Part shown: piece by piece, positions 14,158-63,019 of the stretch | Layout: every line of letters begins with the position of its first letter | How positions within the stretch are numbered: position 1 is the stretch's first letter | Translations under genes and position numbers: made by a program | The notes under the pieces: model-generated | What the model was told of the DNA's origin: nothing | Databases searched by the model: none | What the model saw: only the letters and a program-made list of their open reading frames with translations | Origin: Thysanoteuthis rhombus | Lineage: Eukaryota > Mollusca > Cephalopoda > Oegopsida > Thysanoteuthidae | NCBI GenBank assembly: GCA_963457665.1 | Contig: OY735219.1 | Span: forward strand, 16,503,032 to 16,567,031 | Direction of reading: 5' to 3' | DNA length: 64,000 nt

Positions 14158-14329
14158 TTTGATAAGGCTTGACGAGACTGTGTTCTCTTTTTAAATAATC
14201 TTGTGTATTCCATTCTCCAAAAACAGTCGAAAAGATAGAAATTAACAAAAGGTGCAAAAAGCACCCGACAAACGTGACCATAGAAGCCATGACACTTTCG
14301 GCAACTCGGTGTAATTCGTTACCCAGCAT
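14158..14329 (-). CDS. LMAN2: LMAN2/VIP36-type cargo lectin, first coding exon
   Basis: This is the first coding exon of a legume-lectin-fold cargo receptor of the LMAN2 (VIP36)/LMAN2L family, type I membrane lectins that bind high-mannose glycoproteins and cycle between ER and Golgi. The predicted peptide has a hydrophobic signal sequence (rich in Leu, Ile, Phe and Val) ending near Phe-Gly. The mature N-terminus then contains DYLKREHSLVKPYQ, nearly identical to the conserved HLKREHSLIKPYQ of vertebrate VIP36. The exon stops right after that motif at a strong donor (GTAAGT at 14157-14152), leaving phase 1. In-frame ATGs are at 14329 and 14290. The second has the better context (GTCATGG) and gives a normal signal peptide, so I prefer it. 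The carbohydrate-recognition domain and membrane anchor should lie on exons further left; I found none in this window. The assignment rests on one short motif, so a close paralogue (LMAN2L) is possible. Confidence 0.75.
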
Positions 14330-28970: not shown

Positions 28971-29765
28971 ATGTTTTTTTTTGGCTAGCATAGTTAATGA
29001 GTTTAGATCAGGCATAGGTACCCTTATTGATCAAACAGGCTATATAAGACATTTTCATCTTGAATGGGGCTACTCATCACTTCAAAAATGTCAATTGTAT
29101 TACAGAAATCATACTTAATTTCTATCATCAGACAAACTTGTGAATTTCAATTATCATATTATTGGCTGGGGAAACCTAAACAATTACAAAATAAATTATA
29201 AAATTGACCTTCTGAGAAAAAGGAGACTTCAAGTAAATGTTCAGATTTGGTACAGGCCACAAAACCCTTTACTGCAAGCCAAATCTGGTTTGCGGGATAT
29301 GGTTGCCCATATTTGATCAGGATGATATGATAGATATGTCTGACATTTCAGTAATAGCTGACGGAGAACCTGAGGTGTTTTTTCACCTTTCAGTTAAGGT
29401 ACATTTCTTGGTTTTGTTTTGATCTTCATGTCGCTGCTATGACCTCAGTTTTAAATAAATTCACATTTATACATCGTACATGTATGACATAGATGATACA
29501 CTTCTATTAGTTACTGTGTTAACATAATAACTCTAATCAAAGGTGATAATTGGCTAAAATAGCTGATCATAAACGTCTGGTTGTTCATAAGTCAGTAGAA
29601 TATTATAGTAATAGAGCAAGTGCAGAATCACTCAATAGGAATCAATAGCTTGCAAGTACTTGGAAATGCAGGGCCCATAGCTACTTTTGCTACTTAATTA
29701 ATCTGGTGTTGGATACGTTTATATCACATTAAGAATTTAACTTCCTACGTTTGTTGAATTATAAT

Positions 29766-32399: not shown

Positions 32400-32498
32400 G
32401 TGAACATGGTCTTTATAATGATGTAACAAAAATGCTTTCTGTATCCCGTGAAAAAATTCAGTTCTTCAACAGCATAATGGCTCCAACCATTAAGCAAG
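32400..32498 (+). CDS. Candidate internal exon, unknown protein
   Basis: A pyrimidine-rich acceptor (CTTTCCTTTTCAATTAAAG) and a GTAATC donor bound a 99-nt exon that starts and ends in phase 1. The peptide EHGLYNDVTKMLSVSREK... has a normal, soluble, helix-like composition, unlike nearby noise. It joins in frame (G/GA) to 32572-32723. It would also accept the phase 1 reading of 17484-17560. I do not recognise the protein. The frame also reads through the donor for about 30 codons, so splicing here is not certain. Confidence 0.35.
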
Positions 32499-32571
32499 GT
32501 AATCAAAATCTTGTGGAACTTAGAACTGATTATCTATCATGCTTTGTACAAAAATTTTTTTCTTGTTCCAG

Positions 32572-32723
32572 GAATTTGTCACGAATACATTTTTAGTCCA
32601 TCTGTTGATTGCATCCTTCGCTACATTGAACAGTTAGTAGATTTGTTCAATGACTTCTGGGTTACTTTTAGGATGTCATTCAAGTTCATCAGTTTGGCAA
32701 AAAGTCAAACTTATATGAAATGA
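32572..32723 (+). CDS. Candidate terminal exon following 32400
   Basis: An acceptor (TTTTTTTCTTGTTCCAG) opens a frame continuing that of 32400-32498 in the correct phase, 50 codons to TGA at 32721-32723. The peptide contains EYIFSPSVDCILRYIEQLVD and a hydrophobic middle. The implied intron is only 73 bp, short beside the multi-kilobase introns elsewhere in the window, which lowers confidence. A degraded LINE ORF1 ends 44 bp further right on the other strand, so the pair could be part of an old insertion. Confidence 0.3.
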
Positions 32724-42170: not shown

Positions 42171-44418
42171 CAACTTTACTTATCAACAAATGATTTGAAC
42201 TGATTCTAAATAATTGTATTTAATTATTTGTTTAACTGAAATTAAATTTTATTTCATTAAATAAATTTGGCTGAAACTGAACCTATCCCGTAACCTTGGG
42301 AGGTCATTGGGGGCACTGCTATTGATTTTGTAACCATCTCCATCTGTTTTCAATTGCCCTTCGTGAGTCGAAGCCTGTCCACGCATGCAATGAAAAAAAA
42401 ATGGCAGCATTTAAATAATTTTGTAATTGTACTCCACTTAAAAAAACAAAACAAAAAAACATAAGAAAAACATTACTTTGCCCTGTATTTCCTTGCTTAT
42501 ATTAAACCAGGATGAATCTGGATTGAAAAAACGAAAAACAAAACAAAACAACAATAGATAAAACGAACAACGAAAAAACAACAAATGGGGAAAAAAAAGA
42601 GCAGAATAAAAATATCAAGAGATATCTGAGGGAAGCTACTTCATAATTGGTATTTATCAGTTACCTCCCTTGACGAAGTTGACTGGGAAAATATTAGGAG
42701 GCGTATTCAGAAGATTTTTCTTATTATCAAAGAATAAAATAGAATAATATATAGTCCACAAAGCGAACAATAACAGATTATTTATATATTTTTTGATTAA
42801 TACATTTTGTGCAGATGATACAAATTAGGCTTAAAGCCTCACAAGCAGTTTCCACCTGTATATTTTCATATACCGTATAATTTCTTGATCATTCAATATT
42901 CGAGCTTTTTAATAATAAAAAGAAGAAAAAGAAAATAAATAAAATTGATGATCTACCAATTTTCATTATTTTTGTTTTTACAATTAAATTACAATATTTT
43001 TTTCAAGACAGACCTTAGCTCATGAGATTATTTCATTTTAAAGATAATTTGATAATTCACTTATTACAATATGTATTTACAAACTATTATTTATGGATTC
43101 CTTTGAAATTATATCTGCTTAAATTTATTGAACATATTTTTGGAAAAAAACTTTTATGAAATAATCTCAAGCAAGTATAGCTGTATGTTCAATTGAATTT
43201 CTTCTATATTTTTCAGTAAGATTATCTGATATAAATAGAGAGCCTTTTTGATGACTTTTTAGTGTTTGTTGAGCTTTTTCCAGTTTTCAGAGTAAAACTA
43301 AATATCAAAACTGCTGGGGAGGTTTTTTATGTATAAAATCATGGGCTAGTAAGAAATTACACGTTGTATTCAATTTTGAAGTATGCTGCCGAGGAGAGTA
43401 AACTCAATAAAACAGTTTCTCTTTAATTACTCTTCTGGCCATCCGTGATTTTGCCTAAGACAGTTGCAACCACAACATGATGCAAGGGCGGTAACTCATG
43501 ATAGCTTCTGATACCCGTAAACAATGGCGATTAACTCAGATTTACTTTCCGAGAGTTGTCTGCTTTTTCTGTGGTGTGTGTATTACAGGAAAAATCTTAC
43601 ATTTTATTATAGCATATTTTTGTCTGCTGATTTCCAAGGGAAACACTTTTGATATCTTGGACAAGAAATACTCTCCTTAACTGTTCCGCTATTTCTTTCA
43701 TCTTTTTGTATCTTTATTTAATTTTAATTTTAATCCATACCCTTTCCCGAGCGAATTCAAAGTTGAGTACGTGAAGTGAATTCAAATATACTCTATGCAA
43801 ATTTTAAAATGCAGCGAACAAATTGAAAAGTACGACCCGCAAAATCTGAAAATACGATGAACAAATTATAAACTGCGACCTGCAAATAAAAAAAAAAAAA
43901 ATACTGCAGACCAACCAAAAGGACAAGCGAACTGAATTTCTTGAAGTTTGTAATCATATACAACATGCTGATAATACTTCATTTGCTGAAAATGTTAATT
44001 TACCTCTAAATAAAATACAGTCATTTTGTTAGTCTCCACCAAAAGCAAATGGTCATACTTGAAGAAAAAAAAAAAAAAAAAATTGTGTTTTTTTCCCCCA
44101 TTCTCATCGACCCCCGACCCCCAAGTGCTGGGTCTTTATCGGTATCACCCACCACGAAAATGGAATCCTGCACCTTACTTTAACCCCGTTGGGGTGAGGA
44201 TGTAGGGTTACCATACATGCCTATAATGTAAATCCCATTTGTTTTGAAAATGTTGGTCTGGTGTTCTGGCAGAGACTAATGAAAAAGCCCTGCCCCCAAT
44301 GCTATGCCGTGTATTGCAATTTTTGTCTTATTTCAAAATTTTGACAGCATTGGTCTGTAATTCGGGAAAAGCTATAAAAATCTAACGATTCGATTGATCT
44401 GCAACCCAACTAAAGAAA
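42171..44418. other. No gene recognised
   Basis: AT-rich sequence with A-rich runs near 42440-42600 and 44065-44082. An ATGGCGATT start at 43524 opens only about 42 codons without splice support. Confidence 0.35.
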
Positions 44419-45955: not shown

Positions 45956-45990
45956 TATATAAGACACGACCTTTGAGCGAATTATTCACT
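45956..45990 (+). promoter_or_regulatory. TATA box and initiator
   Basis: TATATAAG at 45956-45963 is followed 32 bp later by TTCACT with the A at 45988, a good initiator match. This spacing is standard for Pol II core promoters. The position is inferred from sequence and from the downstream donor at 46056. Confidence 0.5.
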
Positions 45991-46055
45991 GGTACCAACA
46001 GACAGACAGCATTAAGAAGGAATTGGTCGAAAAGAATTGTATTACAAGCAAGGAA
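45988..46055 (+). other. Exon 1 (5' UTR) of the secreted-peptide gene
   Basis: 68 nt from the inferred initiator to a GTAAGT donor (46056-46061), with no ATG, as expected for a leader exon. Its link to the exon at 50654 is inferred from the promoter, the donor, and the lack of any closer promoter upstream of the ATG exon. Confidence 0.45.
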
Positions 46056-47427
46056 GTAAGTGTTCATGATTTTATTTTTGGAAAATTCAAGGTCGCTTTG
46101 AACGTCTTAGAACAGTGAAGTTAGAGCAAGTGTAGTTTGTTAGTGCTTGAACGTACGAATGAATGTATCTAAAAATAGTTACAACAAGCACAAAGGTCAT
46201 TGTCATAGTTGTAAAATCTATGAGAGCCAATGTTATGAATGTGAGAGTGTAAAAAAATATCTGATTGATTTGCAACATAATCATAATAATGTAGGGTCTG
46301 CGTCCACTTTAATCCTCATAATAATCTCACTTCTTTCTTTCCGTCTATTGCTATATATTCATAATTTGTGTGCATGTTTATTTTCTCCTCTAAAACATTG
46401 CACTGTAGCCAGAAAGATAGAATTTTGGTTCCCCTAAAATGCATTTGTTTAAAGAGTGTAAAAAATCTGCATGATTTGCAACATAATCATAATATCTATC
46501 TATCTATCTATCTATCTATAAGTCTATCTCTTACGTATATTTGAGAAAATCTTATATCTGACATGAAAAATCTTTCACTAGTAATCCCATAGTGTCTTAT
46601 CCTTCCTAATATGACCTTATCAACAACAATTATAAGACATGTGCAGCTACTTTTCAGCCTGGGCAAGGCCAGGCACCCTGCTAGTCTATTTATATAATAC
46701 GCCACGTGTATGTCTATATCTTTTGACTCTGACGTTTGTCAAAGGTGATAACTATTTAATTCTAATTATAGAGTAGTACGCTGTATTTATTCATCCATCT
46801 ATTTTGCAAATGTGTAAAAAAATCAGTGTTCATTTTGGTTGAAAATAAACAAGAAAATGCAGAGCGTCATATTTTGTTTGATGGTCTCCACGTACAATGC
46901 AATCGCAAGATTATTCAAATAATACCATCAATTTTTTGATGGCATGGGTAAACTAATGAAAAAATAATTCAAGTACTGAATGAATAAATAATTATACCGA
47001 TTGGGTTAAGTCTAAGAGTTTGGACTCGACTCACTGGTTCCATTGTCCGCACTGATAATCGTTTCACCACTCTCACTTCCTTATACGCCTCACTAATGCA
47101 TTGAGGAAGTCATTTAAACACTTTTCCGCAGAAAACACGACAACGACAAGTTTTATTCCAGTTCTATTGCACATTTGATAAAGATCTATTGATTATTGAA
47201 GATTTTCAATATTGATATTCATTAAGTTTAGCTTGATAGCGCACAGGGCTAAAAAGGATTAATAACGGGTGAGAAGATTGAGTTGCGTCAATCTTGCAAG
47301 CGGAAAGTGGAGAGACTATAAAGGGTTGGTTATCTTGCTACATGGGAGATTTGTGACACAGACAAGACTTGTTGTTTAATAGACCAAGATCTTTTGTTAA
47401 ACGAACCAAAACCACGTTGGTTACTCA
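46056..47427 (+). other. Intron 1, first part; (TATC)n at 46493-46519
   Basis: Non-coding. A (TATC)n microsatellite lies at 46493-46519. An open frame at 46159-46437 with several Cys shows no splice support. Confidence 0.35.
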
Positions 47428-48700
47428 TTACATCTGGCGATAAGGATGACAGAATATGATTTTTACGTTGCACGGGGATGATAGCATATTTGTGCGGGGT
47501 ACTGGAGCTGTTCTGACACAGACATGATGCAATTTAGACATTGATACATCAGTACAGTGAAACCAGACGACACATTCAGCGATGCAGTGACGAACATCAA
47601 AGATGAACTGACAGGCTCTGTGGAACAAGTGGCCCCATGAACGAACTCTTTAATGGTATGCAGCAGGCAATTAGGAAATTCTCAGACTGGTGTCTAGACG
47701 TGTTGGAGTAAGCACAGATATATCCACTTGAAGATTGGGGCATGTTGAAGATTCGGGGGGGGGGGGATTGGGGCATGTTGGTACATTTTACTGTCAGGTA
47801 ACCGTCTTTGTGACTAAAACTCAGATTCTGACATACCGATTTTACATCTTGCTTAATGTAAACCAGTATCAAGTCCTTCTCGAATAGTGTTGTAGAAGCA
47901 GAAATTGAGAATTTAAAATGTTTGTCAAAAGGTCCTACGTGCCCTACGGTGGGGGCACGTTGAATCATCACGTGGGGCACATAAGACTAGTGACAAAAAA
48001 GTGAAAGAAAAACACATTCTGATTCTGAAACCCTCAAGATCTGTATTGACTATATAGTACTTGTACAGTCTGGTATGAGTTAGTCGTAGTGCTTTCATAC
48101 AAAGTAGTGCCTACTCAGAATTACTCTGTTGACCTATTGGTAGTTGAATGCTGTAAAGTCAACAGAAACATGCAGAATTGGCACATTTGGTACTTCCAAC
48201 TGAAATGGATTGAGATAGAAACACAACAAAATTGTCTTTGTCAATGTTAGAAATGTCGACATTGGGCTTGGGTGACATTACCACGGATCTTTCCGGATTG
48301 TTCCAAATAGCTAACAACAAACTCCTTATCATCCTTGTTAATTACTTGAACTACACTATGAAATTGTTTAGTAGACTTCTCAGCGACCAATTTCTCAAGA
48401 ACATTGTCTCCAATATCTGGCGATATTTTCAGCATCAGAGCTGTTATCCCCTTGAAAGCTGTTTCATTTTTCCAGGACACTGTCATCAACAAAGCAGGTC
48501 TCTTGCACAATATTCTTTGTTAGATACCATCATTGCCCCTTTTTCTTGGTATTCTTGTTTGACTTTTCAATCAACAGCTCAAGCGAACACTGCTTCTCGA
48601 GCGAGCAGAATTCCTGAACCGGATCAGCATTGCCTTTGGAATCTTCAGATCTTTTGAAACATTTCCTTTCCCCAATCTTTTTCAAAGCACGTTGAATCAT
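47428..48700 (-). pseudogene. Unidentified broken coding fragments
   Basis: Two minus-strand stretches look formerly coding: 47980-47597 (FDKHFKFSISASTTLFEKDL) and 48510-48247 (KISPDIGDNVLEKLVAEKST). Their compositions are protein-like and they are split by stops, as in a decayed mobile-element protein inside intron 1. I do not recognise the family. Confidence 0.3.
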
Positions 48701-48888
48701 ATGATGCACGAGTGGTCATGTGTTGATATTTTCTAACCATTTTTACCTGATTGGAAGTTTACACCCAGTGGAGGTTTCCTAAAGACAAAATTAACATATA
48801 TTCCTGTATATCAAATGCTTTGAGTGACAACTATAGCAGTCTAACGTAGATCGCTAAATATAGTTTAGCTTTACAAAGAATATACCAT

Positions 48889-48956
48889 GGGTCAGGTTAG
48901 ACCACCGAACCAAAGTAGGTCCAACTTGCACTAAACCCTGTGGTTCAACCTGACCC
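48889..48956. repeat. 17-bp-arm inverted repeat
   Basis: GGGTCAGGTTAGACCAC (48889-48905) pairs with GTGGTTCAACCTGACCC (48940-48956) with two mismatches around a 34-base loop. This may be a small MITE end pair or a folded intronic element. Confidence 0.6.
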
Positions 48957-49203
48957 CAGCAACATTCCGGCATCCCATTCAAAATACACATAGGTGACAC
49001 AGAGTAAACACAATAAAGTAACGACCAAGTGTAAAACTCATGGTAGATTAAGGCATCATAACTAGTTAGTTTAGATTCTCAGTACTCAAGGACGAACTAC
49101 ACCATAAGTGAAAATTACAAAATTTTCTTTTGGCACCTCAATACCCCCAAACTTACCGTGGTGAACTTATAGCTTCTTCAAGGCTGATGGAGAAATTTAG
49201 AGC

Positions 49204-49790
49204 ATGCCGAGAGAGGTTTCTTCAGAAGAGAGCTGGAAATTACTAGTGCTGAGGTACCAACGGAATTATGGGTGGTTCACAATACCCACAGGTCAAACGC
49301 GCTCCACTCCCCCCGACAGCAGAGTGTATAATAAGAGACACCATTACCATGCAAACCTCTCGCTTCCGTCAACAAATGGAAGTATTGGCTGAAGATCCGG
49401 ACTATGATACCCTTATCAAATTAGGCTGTACCCTAGAAACATCCGCTAAGCAAGCTACAGATGTGTCACACAGTGAATCAGTACGCTTAGTGAAGAAGCC
49501 CCGAAAAGTTAATCAGAAAATGACTAATTGGGAGAAATGTTGCTACAAAAAGGGTGTGCATATAACAAAGATTCATGAATGGCTAAAAAGTGTGCAGTCT
49601 GCAATGAAATTGGACGTTCCATGAGAACTGGAGTCTGCAGAAATGTATTGATTCCGGTTATCGAAAGACTCTCATCATCAGCATTAATCATTATAAGTCC
49701 ACTGTTGAAGAAAGGACTATGTTGGCTACTCATAACACTTACTTTGATTATAAGCATTTAAAACCTGGACTCGAATGCCGACCATTGGAT
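49204..49790 (+). pseudogene. Gypsy-type LTR retrotransposon gag fossil
   Basis: The plus strand reads as the C-terminal part of a Ty3/gypsy-like Gag: RDTITMQTSRFRQQMEVLAE, then EDPDYDTLIKLGCTLE, then WEKCCYKKG, the start of a zinc knuckle. After a frameshift CAVCNEIG continues the Cys-rich part. Such Gag proteins form the capsid and bind the element RNA. The copy is truncated and frameshifted, with no pol or LTR recognised beside it. It lies in intron 1 of the secreted-peptide gene. Confidence 0.5.
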
Positions 49791-50299
49791 CTGAATAGGC
49801 CTAATTAGATATCAGTTGGGCAAATTTCAGAACCAGACCTAATCATTTTTTACAGAATGACGAAGAACTCAATCAGAAAAGTTAAGTATTTATTTGGACA
49901 AACAGATGATCAATGTAATACTCGGGTAAAAAGCAATTAATTGTTAGAATTTTCGGATAGAGTCCTTCATCAGAAGAAGAAAACCTTTACAAAAACAATA
50001 CGAAAGAAATCATAAAATCCGCCAAAAAGAAGATCTGATAAAGATCAGCAAAACTTAAACGAATTCAATGAATTAATCATCGAAGAACTTCCAAGTTTTA
50101 GGAACTTGAAATCGAATTTTATTAGAATCCAACGTTTTTTTTTATTTTCGTAAATATCGAATATACGTTGAGCTATCTATTTAAAAATGGTATTTGGAAA
50201 CACTTTCAACATTTGGAAGTTAATTTGGTTTTCGGTGAAGGCTTCCAAGGGTAACTAAACAAAGTAAATATATAACATCTATAATAACATATAAACATC
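49791..50299 (+). other. Intron 1, nothing recognised
   Basis: AT-rich sequence; no feature seen. Confidence 0.35.
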
Positions 50300-50420
50300 T
50301 AAAGAAAACTACTAGTGGCTGGTGTTCGAACCCAGGTTATACCCATGATTTGAAATGCTGATTTTAAAAGCAGACATACTCTGCCTACTTGGAAGCTTGG
50401 TGCAACACAATTCACTAAGG
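50300..50420 (-). repeat. tRNA-derived SINE
   Basis: On the minus strand TAGGCAGAGTATGTCTGC precedes CCTGGGTTCGAACACC, a near-consensus box B, in tRNA-like spacing. The arms do not give an intact cloverleaf, so a SINE is more likely than a tRNA gene. Confidence 0.5.
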
Positions 50421-50653
50421 CTCTCATTCCCCCCAATATGTCTTTATGTTATACTAACCCAAGCTTAGTAAATAGTTGGTTATAAGCCTACAATGAGATC
50501 AACATTGAGACAATACATCCAATATAATCTATCCAACAATATGAACCAAAGTTGAATGCATCGTTGTACAATTTTAACCGTTTGGCATGTTTAATTCATT
50601 CCGTTTCTGAGATTTATTTTTAAACATGAATTTAGTTTCTATTCCCCATTCAG

Positions 50654-50751
50654 ATTTTCAATCAAACAGCCTCTTTCAACCATGGACCAACTGAGCAAAA
50701 TGTCGACGATTGTCTTGATGGCGTTTCTGTTGATGAATTTGCTGGGTGAAG
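50654..50751 (+). CDS. Exon 2: start codon and signal peptide
   Basis: An acceptor with a pyrimidine tract (TTTCTATTCCCCATTCAG) ends at 50653. After 28 nt without ATG, CAACCATGG gives an ideal start at 50682. The encoded hydrophobic core (TIVLMAFLLMNLLG) is a textbook signal peptide, and the exon ends after the first base of codon 24 at GTAAGTG (phase 1). An alternative in-frame Met at codon 7 would still keep the signal peptide. Confidence 0.75.
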
Positions 50752-52697
50752 GTAAGTGAATTATCATTTTCATAAACAATTAGCGAAAATATATTCTATT
50801 TTCAAATGTATTGTCTGATGAAGTTAAAGACGCCCTTTATCCTGAAAAAAAATATGAAGAGGCGTGGCCATAAAGACAATGAAAACGAGGAAAACATGCG
50901 AAAGTATCATTTTATGAAAATAACAAAGCTTTTAAGAAATATTGATCACCCCAAACACGGCATGCTATCAAAAGACACTGGTCATGTGACAGTTTCTATT
51001 AAGTGATTAACTAGACCTGTTATTTGGAGTGTGTCACTGGGCAAGAGAGTTTTATTCTGAGTAGAATGTACCGTGTTATATATATATTCTTAATCCTTAA
51101 TTAACTTACGGGTGTTAAATTCATCCGATGATCCTTTGAACAAAATATGGATGTGCAGGTTTGCCCACTATCCAAAAGTGCAGCGTTCCTATCAGAGCCT
51201 TTCGTAAACTGAAACGACGTAAAGCGAAGAATCAATTACCATTAATTTATATGGGAATCTTTTTGAGCGTTCTCAAACCCACAAATGTTGGGGATGGTAT
51301 GTTAGGCCGAGTCGTCGGAGATGGTATTCGTGGGTAGGTACAGCGAACTAGGTGTAGGAAAAAGAGAAAGAGGGTGAGCACAGCATCTATAATGGTTCGA
51401 TGCAAAACAAAAGCTGAGCAATACTTTCGTTTTTTCGCCCTCTTTCCGAAAAAGTGGCGCAAAGCGAACTTCCGAAAGGCGAGGACAACCTGTATTTGAA
51501 TTCTATTAGATGACTTTTTTGAAATAATATAAACTAAAAAAAAAAAAAACAAACAAAGAAAAAAAAACACAGCAAAAAACAGAAAAACGATATAATGGAA
51601 GAGTCCATCGTTTCAAATCGTGGGTAGGACATATTCTTATCAGTAGCAAACATGTTACCTTTAATTGGAAGAGTCGATGGGTTCGGATAGAGAACCAAGA
51701 AAATCACACCATTCACTATGTGAGTCAGTGAGTTTATCTGGCTGGATGTCGCCTATTTATTTAAGTTAACTTCAAAAACAACGTATGCTTTCACATTAGA
51801 TCAAATCTATCAATTCTGCTTTCACTTTTAATGTACCTTTGAGACATTTTCATTCCGAAACGAGATTTTTTACAACCGATTCGTCAGCAGATGTTTGTAA
51901 CATTAAGTAAGTACTTTATGAAGAGATATAGGTATAAGCTGCCCTAATACTTGGTTGGGGGAGGCGTTTCTAGGTGAGGCGTAAAACAAATTCATCATAT
52001 AGGCTTGTTGATGCAAGTTTTTACTGAAATATATATCAATTTAAAATCAATATCGATAGGTTCAAGAAAATATGTTGATATTTTGCAAGGGAGATAACTC
52101 ATCGGCAAACACGATTAGATGCTGAAACAGTTGAACTTTTACGGAACAAATAAAAGCAGAGAACTCCGAACATTTGAAACTGTATTTTATCAAATATAAC
52201 CTCAAAGGATATACATTAGAGTTAGAGTTAGGGTTAGTGTCCACTGTTAGTGTTTAGGATTAGGATTGGGGTTCTTTTTTTAAAAAAAAGCAGATGTTAT
52301 CTAGCTTTGATAGGGTGCAGAATCGAGTGCGTGGAATAGTTGATATATCGATATGATGTAGCAAGCATGACACTTCTTTATTGCTATTTTCATGGAAAGT
52401 GTTTTGAGGATGTCCATCACCTGGTTCCACCAGTGAGAGATTTTACAATCAGAACAGATTTACTATTTCTTGTGAATTCCATCCACACTTTCCATGTACT
52501 CGTTGCAATATCCACTCAAGCAGCTTCTTCCCCTGAAAAGCTGTTTTGTGGAACGAACTTCTTTGAGTGTGCTTTCCTGCTGGATATAATATACAACTGT
52601 TCAAATTCAGGGTCAATCAATATCTTATGAACCTGAAATTATTTTAACTTTATACCTTGAGTGGCCCCTGGGCTTTGTATTAGAAGACTTTGAGTAA

Positions 52698-52763
<66 letters not shown>

Positions 52764-55700
52764 CCCCACAAAACGACCACCCCCCAAAATCCGATTAAAT
52801 CGGACGCCGATTTCTTCAAATTAAAATCAAATGATTGAATAAGAACGTTTATCTCCCTTATATCATGTACGGAGTCTATCCTGCTTACCTCCCCTGAAAA
52901 ATAATGTTTTGGTGAACCTACTCTAAACAATTACCAAATAATAATCTTGGGCAAATTTCAAACCAACGTTAATAAGATTGGCGTACAATCAGGTTTGCCT
53001 GAATGTATTTAGCTTAATCTGATACAACAATAACATAAGTGTGAAGGATCGAACTCATAATCAATGTTGTTATGGTTAACAAGCTTACGATATAGATCGT
53101 TACAACTGTAATGAGTTCGATTCTCACGAGAGTTCAGCCTAATCTGACATAAGGCAACGATAGTGGGGTTCACGGTGTGGATCGGATTAATGGTCTGAAT
53201 CATAAGCTTGTTAACCATTGCTGCACTCATTATGAAACTAGGGATTTCATGAAATTACTGAAGTCTTCAGGGATTTCACGAAATCACTAGTTCCTCAATC
53301 TTACTGTAACGTAAATATCAAAAGAAAGGTCTGTTTGTGCATTACTATAAATAATCCAACCCAAGATGAAATTTTATTTTTTGGACATTTGACTTGGGCC
53401 AACATTATATTGTTCACTCGTTGCCGTAGAATGATGGCCTCACTCAGAGTTGCGATAAAAACAATTTAACGATTGAAATAAAGGTAAAAAGTAGTAAAAA
53501 ATGATAGATTTCTGTATCTTGCATGAATGAATCCCCATAGGCATCACAAGTACCAGAACTAATTATCTAAAACATAATAAAAAAATTGCTCTTTTATTTA
53601 TAATTATCTAAAAAAAATTAGATATTTTATCTAAAATTATCTGAAAATACCAGCATAAGATTTGGGAATTGCTAGTCTAAAATAACAGAGATTCCAAAAA
53701 ACACTTTTTTTCAAAAAAAACAAAAAACAAATAGAAGTTTTTTAGTGTTGTACTCATGCAAATTTTCAAGTTTGTAACCCGAAAAATATGGCCAGGTGTG
53801 CCCGGAGAACACAGACAGACAGACACTCAAAGAGAAAAGAATTTGTTGTCCACTTGGTTGGTCAGGCGGACCATTCGTGGGGCTACGGTGATTCGAATAT
53901 ATTGATTAATTGTAGATCGGTGATTTTGATCTGATTTGACTTTTTTGATGGCTTTTGGTCTATCAGCGCTCGGAAATTCGGTCTGAGAGATTCTATCTTA
54001 GAAAATTTGGTCCATTCTAAATCTAATTCTCTTAAATAAAACCACTGGCTCTGTTCCTCACTGAGTTCCCACCTCTTAAATTTGGTGCAGCTCAACCCGA
54101 TTTAGCACAAACTTGTCAGACAACCACTAAACATCATAACTCACAACGTGGATCCCCCAATATCATATGCGAAACTGCGACCGGGAAAAATAAGATGGTG
54201 TGACAAATTTGAGAGAATATTGGCTCCGCCACACCCATGATAGAGAGGTCTGGTGAATATCAGGGAAGATCTGTATCCGACTACGGACGCTAAAAGGATG
54301 ATGATGATGATGTCATGCATGCTCAATGGACTTATGGGAAGGTTTTAAAGTAAAAAGTATTAAGGATTAAAAAAAAAAAGAAGTTTTTTTCTAAAGGAGG
54401 TTTCATTTCTATGTAAATATAATGCTCAACCGAACCCTTACTTTACGCTAATATACATATATACATATATGCATTAGCTGGACACCGATTGATCAGGCAG
54501 GTTTCAGCTAGTAACATATATGACTGATCTTTCTGAGACCAAATTTTCTAAGACCGAATTCTTCAAGCACCTGTCCTCCATTCCTTTCCGGCAGGTCTTT
54601 GGTATTCATAGGTTTCTTCAGTTTTCATGTGGGTCTGCCTAACTTCCTGGCTATGTATGTGTTGCGCGTACAGGTTGCGTCGATGGAACTTGAGGGCTAC
54701 AAATTTAAACATTTACTCCTTCATGTCTAGAAAAACGTTTTTAACCCCAACAATAGTTTTTTAGCGAGTTCAATTTGCTATGTAAATTTCATCTAAATTG
54801 GTCTAAATTCGGTTTTTTAGTGATCACCGACAAACAAAAGTGAGAAAAATATTATATTCATTGACCATCCCTTTTTTCATCTTTTAATCGATCACCCCGA
54901 ACATGGCATATTGCCAAGAGACGTTGGTCATGTGGCAGATCTATCGAGTGACTAATCAGACCTGTTATTTTTTTTATTTCCAGTTTCTCCAGATAATGGT
55001 TCTGATTCTTCTAAGGCATGTAGTGCCTCCTCAGTTCCAGAGTGGGAATGCACTAGTCTTTGTGAGGTCACCAAAGACCCTGAGTAAGTCCTTAGACCAA
55101 AGATTCTTTATCTTTTTGGCTTCCTCTCTCAACTCAATAGCTCAAATGACTTAACCCCCCCCCCATTGCAGAATACCAGAGAACAGATTTTGGATTGGAA
55201 AGGAATAATATCTTAAATTCAAAATTCAGAGTTTTAAATCAAGAAAATATCTGTAGAGAAACAACCTCCTTGTTGAAACCAGAAGTTCAACCGCGCACCC
55301 TCTATCTATACGTCCATATCTGTGATTTCCGATTTAAAAGGGTTTCTTAACGAAGTAGTAATAGCGTTACTAGTTGTGGTAATCGTTGCAGGAGGGAGAG
55401 GAAAGTGAGGGTGGTTCACCCGAAGATCTGTCCATTAAAGAAAAAAATAGTTTAAATTAGAGTAAATGTACAATTTCTTTTATCAATAATTTGTTCTGGG
55501 GATTTGTATATGGTTGATTTATTTGATTTGTGGGCTTTAAATGGATGTATAAAACATTTTTATCTGTAAAGTTAGTCGGAAATTGAAAAGTTCAGCCAAT
55601 TTTAGCCATTAATAACAAACAATACAAAAAATCCCGCCCTTCCTTTTTCTGTATAACTGGGACTATCCAACAGCCTGATCGACCGACCGGAAAGCGTCTT

Positions 55701-56387
55701 ATAGAGATGTAGAGACACATATGAAAATACTGATAAATGAACATTAAGGCACTTACTGAAATACATATTCATATTTGAAATCTTAATCAATCTATTGTCA
55801 CATATTTGCTTTCACTTATACTTTATTCATTCATTCATTCATTGTGAACCTGCAATCTAGTAATGAGTTGAGACATGTACTCTGGAGAACCCCATTAAAT
55901 GATATCACCTGAAAATCGGTCCGTAGGCCGGGATATTCAGCTAGCTTCAACAAAAGATCAAATTTTTCGACCAAGTTGAATCTATAATATTATTCTGCAA
56001 GTTCTTATCTGAGATAAGTGATAATGAATTTGAACTATGTATTAATTGAATCATACCGTACTTAGAAAATCAAAGCAACGAACTCTTCGATCATATCTAA
56101 TTTAAATACCTGGGAGGATGAAAAACCTAACCCTAACCCAAATCTGAAAACGTTTCACTTCAAAACCTTTCACTAGGTTCATGTAGTATGCGCGCCAAGT
56201 TTGGTTTGGCGAATCAGACTATTACTATTATACAGACATAGATGGAAATTAAATGATTATTATCAGGTTGAGAGCGAATGCGAATAAATCCTTTTCATTT
56301 TGAAACTTTCCCTTTGATCAATTGAGTATGCACGCCAGATTTGTTTGGGCTTGGTGGTTTCTCTCACATGGCAGTAAAACAATCTCA

Positions 56388-56472
<85 letters not shown>

Positions 56473-57773
56473 CCACTATCATGTTTAACATTTAGGACTG
56501 TGTTCTTCGATTTGTAGGTTCCATATGGCATTCTCTTAGTACGTGCAGATAGAAATCAAGATAAAATTATTCGGCCTTTGTCTCATCTGACCTGAGTATA
56601 TTGCCGAAACGTTCCTCATCTTTAGCTAAATGTTCCTCAGGAAAAGTTCAGCTGAACCATGAAATATTTTACTTCTGTCAACATTGCCAGAACCATGCCA
56701 GATCCGTAGAAGCTCGATTCATACCGTCGGAGGATATGGCTAGATGTCTAGCAAGTGACAGCCGTTCCGGCCATATCAGAATCTTCGACCAATTCCTTCC
56801 AAGCAATGTTCAGCTGTATTCTCACATTTTTTTATAATACTCGAGGTAACACAGCCGAACATTTAGTGGGAAACCCCTGTTCTCTACAAGTTGCTTCCAC
56901 TTGAGAATAATTTAACCAATTATTGCTATCTGAATATCAAATTATTCAGCAAGTACTTTATAACCTTCTCCTGACAAATATTTTCGGATAATTTTGTTTC
57001 TAAGGTCAACCGAGTGTTCTTTAACCTTTGACATGATACTGATATGGTTCTTGCGATGCTTATTGGGATGATTGCCACATTTTGTTATTTAGCATGCAGG
57101 CTGACTGCTACGGCATTCTAGGAACCTTATAGAATTTTCAGAAGTAATCTTGCTACGTAAAGTAGACCTTTTACAAACATTAAATATAAATATCAATATT
57201 GAATATTTCTTAACTCCCAATAAAATAAGTACTAATTAAATATATTGATATAGTATCAAATATGGTCTGAATAAATTTTATTTATGACATCACTGGCGTT
57301 TATATACTGAAAAATATCTAAAATAGAGTGAAAAACCCGAGAACCAGAGAATCAAGATGTTACCAATGAACTTATCAAAATACCCCTCCCCAAAGTCAAA
57401 AAAGCTTTTTTTCCAAAAACTTCACCGAGCATTTTTAGAAGACGTCTAGGGGAGAACTGATGCCAAATTCAAAGTCTGTAGACAGAACGGTATGACCAGG
57501 AGCGCTAGACATACTCAGACATATAAACAAACACACAAGCCCAAAACGTCAGAACCATTCGCCAACTTTGATGGCTATGGTAGTTCAACTATTCATTTGA
57601 ATTGGGTTGGGTACTAATTCTCATCACTGTATGTATAAACAATTTGACGTATATTTGAATATTTAAAGAAACAAACAATGAATTGAAAATCAGAAATACA
57701 TTTCAAAGATTACGAACAAGGTGTAAAAGAATCCACTTGAATAATCATCGCTGAGGTGTGAAACAAGTCTGTT

Positions 57774-57842
<69 letters not shown>

Positions 57843-58843
57843 TCCATCCAGAAGTTATAAGAACTCTGTGAAATTGACTGATTTGTTGATGAATTGGGTG
57901 TTCCATGCTCGGAACATTATAGTGAATGTTTGAATGAAGTGATAATATACTGCTAAAGTGTTTAATTTCATGATCAAGAGTTAAAAACGTTCAATTTTGT
58001 AATTGAATCTCCCGGTGTCCAGCAACTATGAAAAAAAACACTCGTGAATTTGATGCTTTTCTATAATTTTAACACCAATCCCTCCCTTTTCAATACACTT
58101 AATCAAGAGGTAAATATTAATAACACGCATCTAACATTATAAAGTCAAGATTTCAGATCAAAATCCAGCGTATAAGTACGTGTCAATCTCATGTGTATAT
58201 ACATCGTTATATATACGAATTTCGTAGTCTGATAACCTGAGAGTGGTAAAAACGAGACAAGATAAGAAAAATGAATTGATATCCTTAGCAGCAACTGTGA
58301 ATACTGAGGATTTAACTACAGCGAACACCAGCCTATTTAACTTCATCAGATGAAGTATTGTAAATCAGCACATCTAACATTAGGGGTTGGGTCCCTCTCC
58401 GAGGGCCGAGAAAAGATTATTGAATTTTTGCAGAAATATAAAGATTAATTATGTAACCAGTTTTTTTTTCAAATCTCTACACAGATATTTAATCCTATTG
58501 GTGAAATAACACAATGCTATTCAATAATGTTATGAATACAAATTTGTTTTATTATATTTTAATACTTTTCCCTCATTGACATATTTTTGAAAGGGTGAGT
58601 TGATTTGTCCACCTACAGTAAGGTTACAATAAGTAATTGTATTAGTGTGCAACTGACGTAAAGTAAGGGTTCATGCCAGCAATAGACCCTGTCTAAGAAA
58701 AAATCAATCTAAATATTTGTCTACTTCCATAACAAACTGTTTCTAAGACGGATTGGAGGTCTTATGAGAGCACCAACAAATACTTTCCACGATGTTGTCA
58801 TATTTGAAGTTATTTTCTGCCGAGCAACGCTTGCTACCCCTGC

Positions 58844-58924
<81 letters not shown>

Positions 58925-61900
58925 GGTATGTACAGTCCAAGTTGGAAATAAGAATCCTGTATAAATATTGTTTCTATCAAACAACTTCTCTTGTTTTCCA
59001 GAGGGGAGAAATCAAATCCAAAGTTGCAATTTTATCAGTAAAAATAACTTTGGTGACGTCTATCAACACGATCTCTTCGAAAGTATTGAATGGACTGGAA
59101 TTTTCTGGAGGACAATGGGGCACAAACGAGATGGTAATACTTAGGGGTGGATGCAGGATTTTCTTTCTGATTGAGAGATGTTTTCCCGTTTTTTTTAATT
59201 GTTTATACAATAATGTCTGCTCATACAAAAGTTCTCGATGGATTTCATTGAAATTCGGGAGAACTGGTTAAATTTTGGAGCAGATCCATACACAGTTATC
59301 TCCCTTAAGTCATAGTTATATGTCTAAACCACATAATATCCCCTGTCTACATTAAATATTTCCAAAATTTATTGATATATTTCAATCAGATTTTGTAAAA
59401 AGGTAGGCAATAGACTACGAAAGAATTGATTGAGTTTTTGAACAGATCCATGCCCTGTCATCTCTCCACGTCGAAATTACATGTCCAAAGCACATAACAT
59501 CGTCCAAGTTATGTGTCTCTCCATACGATATCTCCGAAAGTTCTCAAAGGAATTTAATGAAATTTTGTGGAAGGGTGGGCAATGAGGTGAGAAAGGGGAT
59601 GGTGACTGTTGGGGCGGATCCATGGATTTCTTTTTGATTACATTCATGTATACGCTCACGGTGGCTAATACGATATCTCTAAAAGTTATCAACCGATTTC
59701 AAAGACATTTTTTGTGAGGCTGGGAAATAGGCTACGGGAGAACTGGTTGAATTTTGGAGGGGATCCAGGCACAACTCCCTGAGTGCTTTCAAATTCCTAA
59801 AATGCAATGAATATGAACGTATTTTATTGGATAATTGTATTCTATTTGATCCATTTTTAACATAGCAATATGAAATTAGAAAATTTCAATCCATTAAAAG
59901 ACTTATTTTCAAATGTTAAAACAAAGATTTTATACTGCTTTCATGTTTAAAATAAAATCAATTTTTGTACCTGTCTTGTTTTCTCCCTATTTTACTTACT
60001 ATCGATTTGGCTGTCTATGCACAACGATATCTGTAAACGAACTTCGATTTTGGGGACATCGCTAACCTTCTCGTCTAAATAGTTGAAATGTGTTTTATTG
60101 ATATCCTGTGTCGAAACTTGCCTGAAAGATTCATTGTATAAAGAAGGCCGCGGAGCAGCAATCGACAACGCTTAAAGAAAAAAAAAGCAAGATTTTAAAA
60201 TAGATTTTGTATAATCTGGCTTAGCCTTGACGCTACCCTCGATTTTTCTCGCTAAGCACATCCCTATAACACCTGTAAATACCTGAGTCATCGACCAATA
60301 CGAGAAAGTAACAAAATTACAAAATATACAATCAGATCCTTTTGCTTTTCAGTTTTGACGACACTCCAGAAAAAAGGCAAGAAAGGACGGTTTGCTGGAC
60401 TTGCTACGGTATTCGATGCGAGTAAGTAAGCAAATTAAAAGTCGCATGGTCTTGCTATTATTATTATCATCAATATTTTCAGTTTCAGAACAGTTGCCTG
60501 ATAGTCACCTCTGAAGACTGAGCGATTGCAAGTCTCCCTGAATATCCATCCCTCCTCTCAACAATATCACTGTCTGCAGCAGTGCTGTGGTTTACAGTTT
60601 TAGACCAGTTACCTGATGTTTGTCGCTGAAGGTTGTGACTAAGTTTCCTGAAGTCCTCAGCCCTCCTCTCATCGTCCCCAAATATCACAAAAGTGTTTTG
60701 GTTTGTACCGTCTCGACTAAGCCTCTTTCATACTGGTTGTTAGTCCATTGCTAACGACTGGGGGTCGTAAATATCATATTCCCAGTACTTTCCCCTGTAT
60801 TTGCACAGAACCCAGTTGTGTTGTGGTCTGCATAGTCTCAATCTTCCCTTTTATCTCCAGCTTATACAATCTCATTTTCAGCGTTTTTGGTACGGTTCTG
60901 AGTGCACCTACTATTATTGGTACTACCCCGACCTTCAAGTTCCATACCTCCATCAGTTCCCTTACCAATTTCTGGTATTTTCCTAACTTTTCACTCTCTT
61001 TCATATGAACTCTGTGATCTGCAGGCATAGCCACGTTTACTATTTTGTAGGTTTGCTTTCCCTTGTCCACAACAGGTGCGGTTTTCTCGCTTGGATAGGT
61101 TTATCGGTTCAGATGTCAAAGTCTCAGAGTAATTTGCGGCTTCCATGTTTCAGAACTGTCTCCGGTTATTACTGATACCATTCGTCTGCATGATTGAATC
61201 CCAACCGTTTTCTTATTTTTCATTGTACAACTGTTGCTACACTGTCATGTCTGTTTCTGTACTCTTTCTGGGCTAGTTTACAACATTCACTGGCTATGTT
61301 GTTCACAGTCTCGTCCCTTTTCCCACATAGGTGGCATTAGCTGTTTTTTAGGTTCTGTCAATCTTTGCCTTTAGATGCCATGATGAGCGATTCCCTTTAG
61401 CACTTCAGGTTTCCATTGGGTAGCCATGTCAATGATCTCTCGTCTGCAATATTTTGTAGCTTTCTTTTGAATTCCCTGTGTAGCTTTTTCTGTTCCCATT
61501 TTTCTTTCCTTGTTGTCTGCTTTGCTACTCCCTTATTTGCTACTTTTTTGTTGCTTGTAGCACTACTTCCAGCATTTTGTATAATGTCTTCACTGCTTGC
61601 TTGCACATAAATTTTTTTTTTTTTAAATCCCGGTTTGGTCTTTTGAACACATTTTTCTACAACGATGAGTCCTCTGCCTCCTTCGTTCTCTTCACATGTA
61701 GTCTACTTGAATCGTTTCTGGGGTGAAGAACCTTGTGTAACGCCACAAGCTTCCCTGTTTGTCGGTCCATTGATTGGAGCTCTTTCTTTGTCCATCCAAG
61801 ACATGGACCTGTGTATCTTACTGTTGATACTGCCCACGTCTTCATTCTTTTTATATCATTCTACTAATACGACTACCGGCAATTTTAAAGACAGACAGAA

Positions 61901-62680
61901 AACATCGCAGACGAATGATCATGCTTTGGCTCGAACGCCAACTCCTAGCACAGGAAGAGAATTTCTTTTGTCTTTTTCAGTTCGAGAGATTTTCCCACGA
62001 ATATATCAAGTGACTGGATGAATTTGGCTATCTATATCATAAATCACGGATCGGCAATTCTTTTTGCAGGGAAGCTAAATCTAAAATGTTTTCAAGTCTC
62101 GGGGACTAAAACGAATAAAAAAATCAAAGAACGATTGTGCCACCTTGTCATTTTCTTAATCATTTTAATAACTTTTCAATATAGGAGTATATACCTGAAT
62201 AAATTCCCATGAATATCAATCAAAGAGGACTATGAAATTTGGAGGGGAACAAAATATTGTTTAATTGTGCTCCAAATTTTGATTATATCAATCGAACAGT
62301 AAGAATACCTTTTGTTAAAACAATTCATATCCTTCGTTTGATGACCGTGCAAAAGATCTCTAATCTATTTTCCATTACTAAATTTAAATTTTATTTCGAT
62401 AAGGAAAACAAAGAATTTTGAATGCAACATCACATATTCACTGAATCGGCGGGTCTGATGAAATTGGGCTGCGGGCCGTAGTTTGTTGACACCTGTCATA
62501 AACCAATAGCCAAGATGTATTTCTTCCTTTAAGGCAAATCCCTAATTCAGCTTGCCAAGTTGGAATAATCACCGTCTAACTTTAATTCCTTTTTCTTTTT
62601 TCTATTCCAGTTTTGATTTTGAAAAGATAAAAGAGGAATTCGAACTCACGAATACGCTAAATGAACGCTTTATTAAATAA
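50682..62680 (+). CDS. Secreted six-cysteine peptide gene (spliced, 4 coding exons)
   Basis: Coding segments 50682-50751, 54984-55083, 60353-60421 and 62611-62680 join in one open frame of about 102 codons; intron phases are 1, 2 and 2, and all donors are GTAAGT. The product starts with a hydrophobic signal peptide (residues 1 to about 24). It then has an Asn-Gly-Ser glycosylation sequon (28-30), six cysteines at 36, 46, 50, 71, 74 and 79, a Lys-Arg pair at 64-65, and an acidic, charged tail (80-102) likely to be helical. The cysteine spacing is C-x9-C-x3-C-x20-C-x2-C-x4-C. This suggests a secreted disulfide-rich peptide or prohormone; I recognise no family, and function (hormone, immune or gland peptide) cannot be chosen from sequence. 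TATA-initiator promoter, Kozak start and poly(A) signal frame it as a complete gene of about 17 kb. A missed exon of matching phase cannot be excluded. Confidence 0.7.
50752..50939 (+). other. Intron 2, start
   Basis: Begins at the GTAAGTG donor; A-rich, with no feature seen before the family A fragment. Confidence 0.4.
50940..51020 (+). repeat. Family A, copy 7 (3' end only)
   Basis: Only the last 80 bp of the family are present: GATCACCCCAAACACGGCAT, GGTCATGTGACAGTTTCTAT, GTGATTAACTAGACCTGTTA. The 5' truncation recalls retroposed SINEs. Confidence 0.7.
51245..51720 (+). repeat. Family B, copy 2
   Basis: Matches 14550-14880 in order: TTTTGAGCGTTCTCA, GGGTAGGTACAG, CCCTCTTTCCGAAAAAGTGG, GGAAGAGTCCAT, AGAGAACCAAGAAAA. 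It is longer, with an A-rich insertion near 51536-51570. Confidence 0.65.
51721..52700 (+). other. Intron 2, no gene recognised
   Basis: Contains AGTTAGAGTTAGGGTTAG near 52217, a short telomere-like patch, and otherwise unremarkable sequence. Confidence 0.35.
52701..52764. repeat. (CAA)n microsatellite
   Basis: About 21 CAA units; it makes a poly-Cys frame on the opposite strand that is not a gene. Confidence 0.95.
53010..53235. repeat. Inverted tRNA-like SINE cluster
   Basis: GGTTAACAAGCTTACGAT with ATGAGTTCGATTCTC downstream is tRNA-like on the plus strand (53073-53130). Flanking reverse copies carry GGATCGAACTCAT (53047) and AAGCTTGTTAACCATTG (53203-53220). Three related heads in alternating orientation are packed into about 225 bp. 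Confidence 0.5.
53236..54599 (+). other. Intron 2, no gene recognised
   Basis: AT-rich; a small TGATGATGATGATG stretch near 54298. No feature beyond that. Confidence 0.35.
54600..54970 (+). repeat. Family A, copy 8, abutting exon 3
   Basis: Near full-length copy ending TCGAGTGACTAATCAGACCT, directly before the T-rich tract and CAG that form the acceptor of exon 3. The TTTTTTTT run resembles the T-rich sequence after the same end in copy 1. Confidence 0.75.
54984..55083 (+). CDS. Exon 3 of the secreted-peptide gene
   Basis: The acceptor TTATTTTTTTTATTTCCAG ends at 54983. The 100-nt exon completes codon 24 and encodes 32 further full codons with Cys 36, 46 and 50, Trp 44 (WECTSLCE) and the NGS sequon. 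It ends after two bases of a codon at GTAAGTCC (phase 2). The 5' half of the peptide is Ser- and Asp-rich. Confidence 0.7.
55084..56389 (+). other. Intron 3, first part
   Basis: Non-coding; a C-run near 55154 and a TTCA microsatellite near 55825-55845. No exon of fitting phase was found. Confidence 0.35.
56390..56471. repeat. (AT)n array
   Basis: About 41 perfect AT units within intron 3. Confidence 0.97.
57265..57600. repeat. Repeat E, copy 2
   Basis: Counterpart of 37830-38110: GAATAAATTTTATTTATGAC, ATCACTGGCGTTTATA, GAAAAATATCTAAAAT, ACTTTGATGGCTATGGTAGT. Confidence 0.6.
57777..57842. repeat. (TA)n array
   Basis: About 33 perfect TA units within intron 3. Confidence 0.97.
57843..58847 (+). 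other. Intron 3, no gene recognised
   Basis: Nothing supportable seen between the two (TA)n arrays. Confidence 0.35.
58848..58921. repeat. (TA)n array
   Basis: About 36 perfect TA units; the Ile-Tyr frames crossing it on both strands are artefacts. Confidence 0.97.
59040..59785 (+). repeat. Array of degenerate ~150-200 bp units
   Basis: Phrases of the form CGATATCTC.GAAAGTT, AATTTAATGAAATTTTGTGG, GGCAATAG or GGGAAATAGGCTACG, GAACTGGTTGAATTTTGGAG and GGATCCA recur four to five times with many changes (near 59060, 59230, 59370, 59510 and 59670). This is an old tandem or clustered dispersed repeat in intron 3, of unknown origin. Confidence 0.6.
59786..60352 (+). other. Intron 3, end
   Basis: No feature except the acceptor tract GATCCTTTTGCTTTTCAG at its end. 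Confidence 0.4.
60353..60421 (+). CDS. Exon 4 of the secreted-peptide gene
   Basis: 69 nt between a strong acceptor and GTAAGTAAG. Starting with the last base of codon 57, it encodes an acidic stretch, Lys-Arg at 64-65 followed by Gln, and a cysteine-rich core CWTCYGIRC. It ends in phase 2. The KR-Q junction looks like a prohormone cleavage site that would expose an N-terminal Gln able to cyclise. Confidence 0.7.
60485..61855 (-). pseudogene. R2/NeSL-like LINE, C-terminal ORF fossil
   Basis: Minus-strand frames read as the C-terminal half of a non-LTR retrotransposon polyprotein. 61845-61657 (MKTWAVSTVRYTGP, then LGWTKKELQSMDRQTGKL, then LHPRNDSSRL) is the end of the reverse transcriptase/thumb. 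A Cys/His cluster follows near 61340-61260. 61070-60774 (NVAMPADHRVHMKESEKLGK) matches the segment after the catalytic part of a restriction-like endonuclease, which suggests the R2/NeSL group. It is broken by stops and frameshifts, inserted antisense in intron 4 starting only about 60 bp after exon 4. Confidence 0.65.
61856..62610 (+). other. Intron 4, end
   Basis: Non-coding; ends with an excellent acceptor tract (TTTTTCTTTTTTCTATTCCAG). Confidence 0.45.
62611..62680 (+). CDS. Exon 5 (terminal) of the secreted-peptide gene
   Basis: The best acceptor in the gene opens a frame that completes codon 80 and adds 22 residues to TAA at 62678-62680. The tail is charged (FEKIKEEFEL then a TNTLNERF segment), cysteine-free and helix-prone. 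The 3' UTR continues to the poly(A) signal at 62902. Confidence 0.7.
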
Positions 62681-62901
62681 TGTATCGATACATTTAAATT
62701 TTCAAGGACCTTTTTTTCTTTTCTGTCAACGAGTATAAAACCAAGAAAGACAATGATTCTGACCAGAATGCAATGGAAATTGACAACTCTTCAAAAAACT
62801 AACTCGCCCTCAACCAAATGCAACTTGTTTTGTAAGGCGTAAAGAATGAATGTCTCACCTGAAATTCCTCTTGATTGAGTTGAGTAAAAAATCTTTATTG
62901 A

Positions 62902-62907
62902 AATAAA
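62902..62907 (+). terminator. Poly(A) signal of the secreted-peptide gene
   Basis: AATAAA 221 bp after the stop, followed about 30 bp later by T- and GT-rich sequence (TTTCTTTCTGTGTT), as expected for cleavage around 62920-62935. Confidence 0.6.
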
Positions 62908-63019
62908 TATTTTACTCTCTGCACCGAATTTCTTTCTGTGTTATTCATTATGAAAAGTTGAAGAATCGTAGACATCAAATATGACGAAAGATTTCGTCCC
63001 TTAAAAAAAAAAAAATATG

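Follow-up and report, generated by a model that had tools for sequence, protein, structure and literature searches.

The stretch analysed here (hereafter 'the window') comprises 64,000 nucleotides of contig OY735219.1 from the cephalopod Thysanoteuthis rhombus (GenBank assembly GCA_963457665.1, positions 16,503,032 to 16,567,031 of the forward strand). On its plus strand it probably carries a real, split protein-coding gene for a predicted secreted peptide with six cysteines, and this judgement from the sequence holds whichever last exon is used. The short exons of the gene are spread over 17 kb (Table 1). The original prediction, assembled by eye, was of a small but complete gene whose product is a secreted peptide with six cysteines; the frame, the splice-site ranks, an enumeration of gene models, the promoter and the polyadenylation (poly(A)) signal all support that description well.

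Exons, frame and signals

Direct reading and joining of the exons recovers the four junctions, the intron phases (1, 2 and 2) and the open frame that had been predicted, together with the ACCATGG start, the TAA and the downstream AATAAA. Once spliced, the four coding exons form a single open frame of 102 codons followed by TAA, and the joined product, MDQLSKMSTIVLMAFLLMNLLGE-VSPDNGSDSSKACSASSVPEWECTSLCEVTKDPD-FDDTPEKRQERTVCWTCYGIRCD-FDFEKIKEEFELTNTLNERFIK, has 102 residues. Exons 2, 3, 4 and 5 contribute 70, 100, 69 and 70 coding bases, respectively, the last figure including the stop, and removal of the four introns leaves a messenger RNA (mRNA) of about 650 bases.

Splice sites and start codon were scored with matrices written from general animal consensus values, and ranked among the plus-strand sites of the window. 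The acceptors of exons 2, 3, 4 and 5 rank 27, 31, 59 and 12 among 3540 AG sites, the donors of exons 1, 2, 3 and 4 rank 49, 2, 244 and 61 among 3285 GT sites, and the start context stands third among 1268 ATG contexts. That all donors read GTAAGT, as had been claimed, is true of the intron side in all four cases. On the exon side exon 2 alone fits well (AAG), the other exons ending in GAA, TGA and CGA, so that the donors are good but short of perfect. The probable LMAN2-like first exon found elsewhere in the window also ends in A before its GTAAGT, which suggests that an exon-final A is tolerated at this position in the species. GTAAGT itself occurs 22 times on the plus strand of the window and 15 times on the minus strand.

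The original prediction had the transcript start at 45956. That position belongs instead to a TATA box, and judging from the motifs the transcript, and with it exon 1, probably starts near 45988, where an initiator follows. TTCACT, whose A is at 45988 and thus 32 bases from the first T of the box, fits the animal initiator pattern. A TATA-initiator pair alone means little, since there are five on the plus strand and four on the minus strand against a null mean of 6.22; a pair followed by GTAAGT within 150 bases, however, occurs once, here, against a mean of 0.15 in synthetic windows. The leader of 96 bases lacks any ATG. At the other end of the gene, the AATAAA lies 222 bases past the stop codon and is the sole A(A/T)TAAA between there and the end of the window.

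Exons 4 and 5 both open with TTTTGA after phase-2 introns, giving D-F-D at both junctions. This shared start could be due to chance or could be the trace of an exon duplication.

Table 1. The gene for the six-cysteine peptide and other features, in window coordinates (E, expectation value; ranks are among plus-strand sites)
Feature	Position	Strand	Evidence
TATA box TATATAAG	45956..45963	+	sequence
Exon 1, 5' untranslated region (UTR) only, presumed initiator A at 45988	45988..46055	+	donor GAA/GTAAGT, 3.78 bits, rank 49/3285
Exon 2, rest of 5' UTR, ATG at 50682 (ACCATGG), signal-peptide exon MDQLSKMSTIVLMAFLLMNLLGE	50654..50751	+	phase-1 donor AAG/GTAAGT
Exon 3, phase 1 to 2, VSPDNGSDSSKACSASSVPEWECTSLCEVTKDP(D), Cys 1-3	54984..55083	+	acceptor 31/3540, donor 244/3285
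Exon 4, phase 2 to 2, 69 bases, FDDTPEKRQERTVCWTCYGIRC(D), Cys 4-6, Lys-Arg at residues 64-65	60353..60421	+	acceptor 59/3540, donor 61/3285
Exon 5, FDFEKIKEEFELTNTLNERFIK, TAA at 62678-62680, 3' UTR	62611..62925 (end near 62925 is a guess)	+	acceptor 7.28 bits, 12/3540
Poly(A) signal AATAAA	62902..62907	+	sequence
Open frame in intron 1, 123 residues	49253..49624	+
Transposase helix-turn-helix piece (Sleeping Beauty/Tc1 type) in intron 3, amid stops	56891..57034	-	Pfam HTH_SB, E 2.1e-8, 34.2 bits (family cut-off 43)
Broken frames in intron 4	about 60700..61750	-
Probable first exon of LMAN2/VIP36-like cargo lectin, MASMVTFVGCFLHLLLISIFSTVFGEWNTQDYLKREHSLVKPYQ	14158..14290	-	E 0.005; GTAAGT donor follows
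MND1-end-like piece with stops	32496..32687	-	Pfam LZ3wCH, E 2.2e-6, 28 bits (cut-off 26.1)
Weak motilin receptor match, 44 residues	5810..5941	-	E 0.0077
Minisatellite, 57-base unit repeated 20 times	23795..24934		copies 99% alike

Chance, decay and alternative exons

The strict enumeration required a start in good context, a leader that is hydrophobic, GTAAGT at every donor, acceptors of good quality, no intron above 6 kb, four coding exons or more, six cysteines past the leader and an AATAAA within 300 bases. On the plus strand these rules return four models, all of them variants of the same gene (two exon 3 acceptors combined with two last exons), or eight with a looser start context, which adds the start at Met7. 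No model of this kind arises on the minus strand, nor in any of 300 third-order Markov windows at either start setting. Relaxed rules give 101 models on the plus strand and again none on the minus strand. Among the 15 of these models that were listed, exon 2 is the opening exon in 14 and the remaining one begins at 58792; other middle or last exons are used in some. At least one relaxed model appears in 5 of 200 synthetic windows of order 3 and in 6 of 200 of order 5.

Several observations weigh against the gene. The donor of exon 3, at 0.99 bits, is weak on its exon side, the codon signal of the individual exons is small (1.9 to 5.5 bits), and a second open frame runs through exon 3 and likewise through exon 4. 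The probable site of signal cleavage departs from the textbook pattern, exon 4 also joins other in-frame last exons (for example 62070-62109), so that the final exon is not unique, and no homolog was found in the protein collection, PDB sequences or viral contigs searched. The thresholds of both enumerations were set after the model had been seen; with such thresholds, and with synthetic windows that lack real repeats, the counts above serve as guides. Finally, when gene models are scored additively, as in a gene finder, better-scoring ones than this exist on both strands of the window. The top plus-strand models begin with the retroelement-like frame at 49268, which scores 22.5 bits alone and 28.3 bits when joined to 60353-60421 in another frame, and the best minus-strand model reaches 16.6 bits, above the 14.4 of the six-cysteine gene. 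At an intron cost of 12 bits that score of 14.4 is matched by some model in 19 of 100 null windows; at costs of 15 and 18 bits, where the gene scores 5.4 and -3.6, some null model is as good in all 100.

These last figures, and the handful of relaxed models in synthetic windows, speak for chance: splice-like signals that do not belong together would have been assembled by eye, with an ATG frame that happens to be hydrophobic, where there is no gene. A reader who scans many windows will also encounter some accidental models. We nevertheless consider chance an unlikely explanation. The strict rules yield nothing in the 300 Markov windows, and null models of at least four exons equal the additive score of the gene in only 2, 0 and 0 of 100 windows at the three intron costs. 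The donor cut-off of the additive test was 3 bits, which the exon 3 donor fails, and the gene was therefore scored separately; the nulls were bound to stricter donors, which favours the gene somewhat. In addition, the promoter and poly(A) signals are placed where required, and the minus strand of the window is without models under either rule set. Still less probable is a locus that is transcribed and spliced but whose frame has ceased to be translated or was not translated at any time. The weak codon signal per exon and the decayed mobile-element pieces inside the introns would suit such a decayed or non-coding transcript, but the frame is intact across three introns, it has a high-ranking start behind a leader without ATG, and there is no break anywhere in the modelled exons.

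If the gene is real, as we think probable, some of its details may yet differ. Exons 2 to 4 are well supported while the last exon is least certain, and the final 22-23 residues are the weakest part of the product because exon 4 can join rival in-frame last exons. A version of the gene with another last exon (such as 62070-62109), with exon 3 starting from 54993 or 55041, or with exon 4 skipped in some mRNAs is rather unlikely, though it deserves consideration. The rival acceptors at 62070 (5.80 bits) and 54993 (5.44 bits) are of like strength, AATAAA-like signals lie at 62114 and 62198, and the relaxed models listed (15 of 101) differ in their exon 3 starts and last exons. Exon 4 is symmetrical, so that skipping it would keep the frame, and Met7 (50700) offers an alternative protein start. 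On the other hand, the acceptor at 62611 is the best of the four compared, and the exon that it opens has a coding score of 5.4 bits against 2.7 for 62070-62109. Two further rivals, 60809-60889 and 61561-61722, lie opposite broken minus-strand frames, with many stops, that resemble the end of a LINE-like reverse transcriptase, and 62611 was therefore kept as the start of the last exon. A search for single exons that could be inserted without loss of frame (acceptor of at least 3 bits, donor of at least 0.9 bits) found none above these cut-offs in intron 2 (phase 1-1) or intron 3 (phase 2-2). Intron 4 holds two weak candidates; the stronger reaches 1.7 bits, where exon 3 has 12.4 and exon 4 has 10.8.

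The predicted peptide and possible relatives

The six cysteines lie at residues 36, 46, 50, 71, 74 and 79, which confirms the spacing 9-3-20-2-4 of the original prediction, and are encoded three each by exons 3 and 4. The small size, the even number of cysteines and the intact spliced frame are all features of genes for secreted small cysteine-rich peptides. Judged by hydropathy, the leader has a hydrophobic core with a Kyte-Doolittle mean of 2.62 over 11 residues. A phase-1 intron follows just past the predicted signal peptide, a placement towards which secreted proteins are known to tend (PMC7259759). With a signal of about 23 residues removed, the predicted mature part of about 79 residues has an isoelectric point near 4.4 and a net charge of about -8.4, and contains one NGS site and a single Lys-Arg followed by Gln.

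From the exon structure, frame and motifs we infer the following course of events. Transcription would begin at the TATA/initiator promoter, near 45988, and the splicing out of four introns would produce an mRNA encoding the 102-residue precursor. The signal peptide would be removed near residue 23, and the acidic remainder could then form as many as three disulfide bonds as it folds extracellularly, where it would act as a peptide. A cut after Lys64-Arg65, with cyclisation of the next Gln, is possible; it would give two chains of three cysteines each, joined by at least one interchain bond. Since the peptide is strongly negative, a signalling or regulatory ligand seems more likely than a cationic antimicrobial that attacks membranes. 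It is conceivable, although we regard it as doubtful, that the gene founds a new family of two-chain secreted peptides, with a cut at Lys64-Arg65, pyroglutamate at the head of the second chain, three cysteines per chain (x9-x3 and x2-x4) from one cysteine exon each, and a hormone-like ligand of restricted expression from its TATA promoter. TATA promoters are reported to show high activity in differentiated tissues (PMC7863008).

Within Pfam, NCBIfam and PDB sequences, the view stands that no named family has this cysteine framework. With the full peptide as query, Pfam at E up to 10 gives only Stc1, below its cut-off (the HMMER filters discard most matches with E above 0.1), while NCBIfam gives no match and the PDB sequences none at E up to 10. 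Eight pattern matches among viral contigs yielded no confirmed relative, and a collection of 5.8 billion proteins offered one word-sharing candidate and no match at E up to 10. As a control, the retroelement-like piece of intron 1 was compared with the same collection and gave three word-sharing candidates and no match at E up to 1. This control also went without a match, which suggests that the lineage is thinly represented in the collection and that the missing homologs say little. A literature search of 5.39 million papers with short words from the peptide matched only a plasmid paper, unrelated by its title. Within the window, tblastn at low thresholds recovers the four coding exons with E from 3e-20 to 9e-10; no paralog is seen among the 40 matches listed, the next best of which (0.077 and 0.10) both contain stops. 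Two look-alikes of the C-x2-C-x4-C element, CPQCYAVYC at 44291 and another at 29489 on the minus strand, were dropped by eye, their splice sites being unconvincing.

The match to the Stc1 domain (PF12898) has an E of 0.0025 and scores 18.8 bits at full length and 17.9 without the signal, against a Pfam cut-off of 24.8. None of nine shuffles that preserve the cysteines and the signal matches Stc1, and four of the nine match another family, at best with E 0.026. The score is thus somewhat above shuffle level, yet it is sub-threshold and at odds with the signal peptide: Stc1 is an intracellular fungal zinc-binding domain, whereas the peptide has a signal-like leader. The likeness lies in two cysteine pairs at roughly matching distances, although the first pair of the peptide is C-x3-C.

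The CRP-I genes of Mytilus resemble the present gene in organization. They begin with a short exon confined to the UTR, coding starts in exon 2, and the product is a small secreted precursor with six cysteines and a dibasic convertase site (PMC10138031), features that the present gene and its predicted product share. The CRP-I/knottin array C(x3-6)C(x1-7)CC(x3-4)C(x3-5)C, located in the last exon (PMC10138031), does not accommodate the cysteine positions found here; the peptide lacks a CC pair and its cysteines are split between two exons, and this assignment was rejected. A second comparison is offered by precursors of the eclosion-hormone type, once called Np11/Np15, from echinoderms and arthropods, which are small, secreted and have six cysteines (PMC4772807, PMC5627052). 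The echinoderm precursors have about 100 residues, an acidic stretch and six cysteines within about 50 residues, as here, and cysteine positions are conserved within the family. The spacing of the peptide, however, is unlike the insect spacing, and the Pfam profile of the family is unmatched at E up to 10, so that this candidate too was set aside.

This is very probably a real gene, ordinary in kind, whose cysteine pattern is unplaced; small precursors that are secreted and have six cysteines are common. As it stands, it represents one more likely gene for a small secreted peptide without a known relative, and it has no bearing on a long-standing question. Annotation easily overlooks a gene whose short exons are scattered across 17 kb, and gene lists may therefore understate the number of secreted peptides, some of them unrecognised. 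If the peptide is expressed and conserved, its cysteine framework would be a new one that could be tested for action as a ligand.

Other features of the window

The Pfam survey covered all six frames from 25 to 45 kb and from 49 to 64 kb, four frames from 15 to 25 kb (three plus, one minus) and one plus-strand frame from 45 to 49 kb, with an E cut-off of 1 in one scan and 0.1 in the others; three minus-strand frames from 1 to 15 kb were compared with the PDB, with weak matches only. Five single open frames compared with Pfam gave one weak match (UPF0180, E 0.14). On the minus strand between 15 and 25 kb, DUF4363 (E 0.0017) and Patatin (E 0.0041) are both sub-threshold, and no single stretch there is significant alone.

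Three introns of the six-cysteine gene hold pieces of other elements (Table 1). The open frame in intron 1, without a match in Pfam or the protein collection, resembles a gag-type retroelement fragment. Intron 3 contains a piece of a transposase, and the broken frames of intron 4, unmatched in Pfam, resemble the zinc finger and tail end of a reverse transcriptase of the long interspersed nuclear element (LINE) type.

Elsewhere, 11 of 14 residues of the probable LMAN2-like first exon match LMAN2, and no convincing further LMAN2 exon was found in the window. The MND1-like piece is probably a decayed retrocopy; it is 45% identical over 65 columns to MND1, a meiotic protein. The motilin receptor match, in a frame read through one stop, is perhaps a decayed receptor piece or chance. 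The minisatellite is open over long frames on both strands, of 415 and 409 residues.

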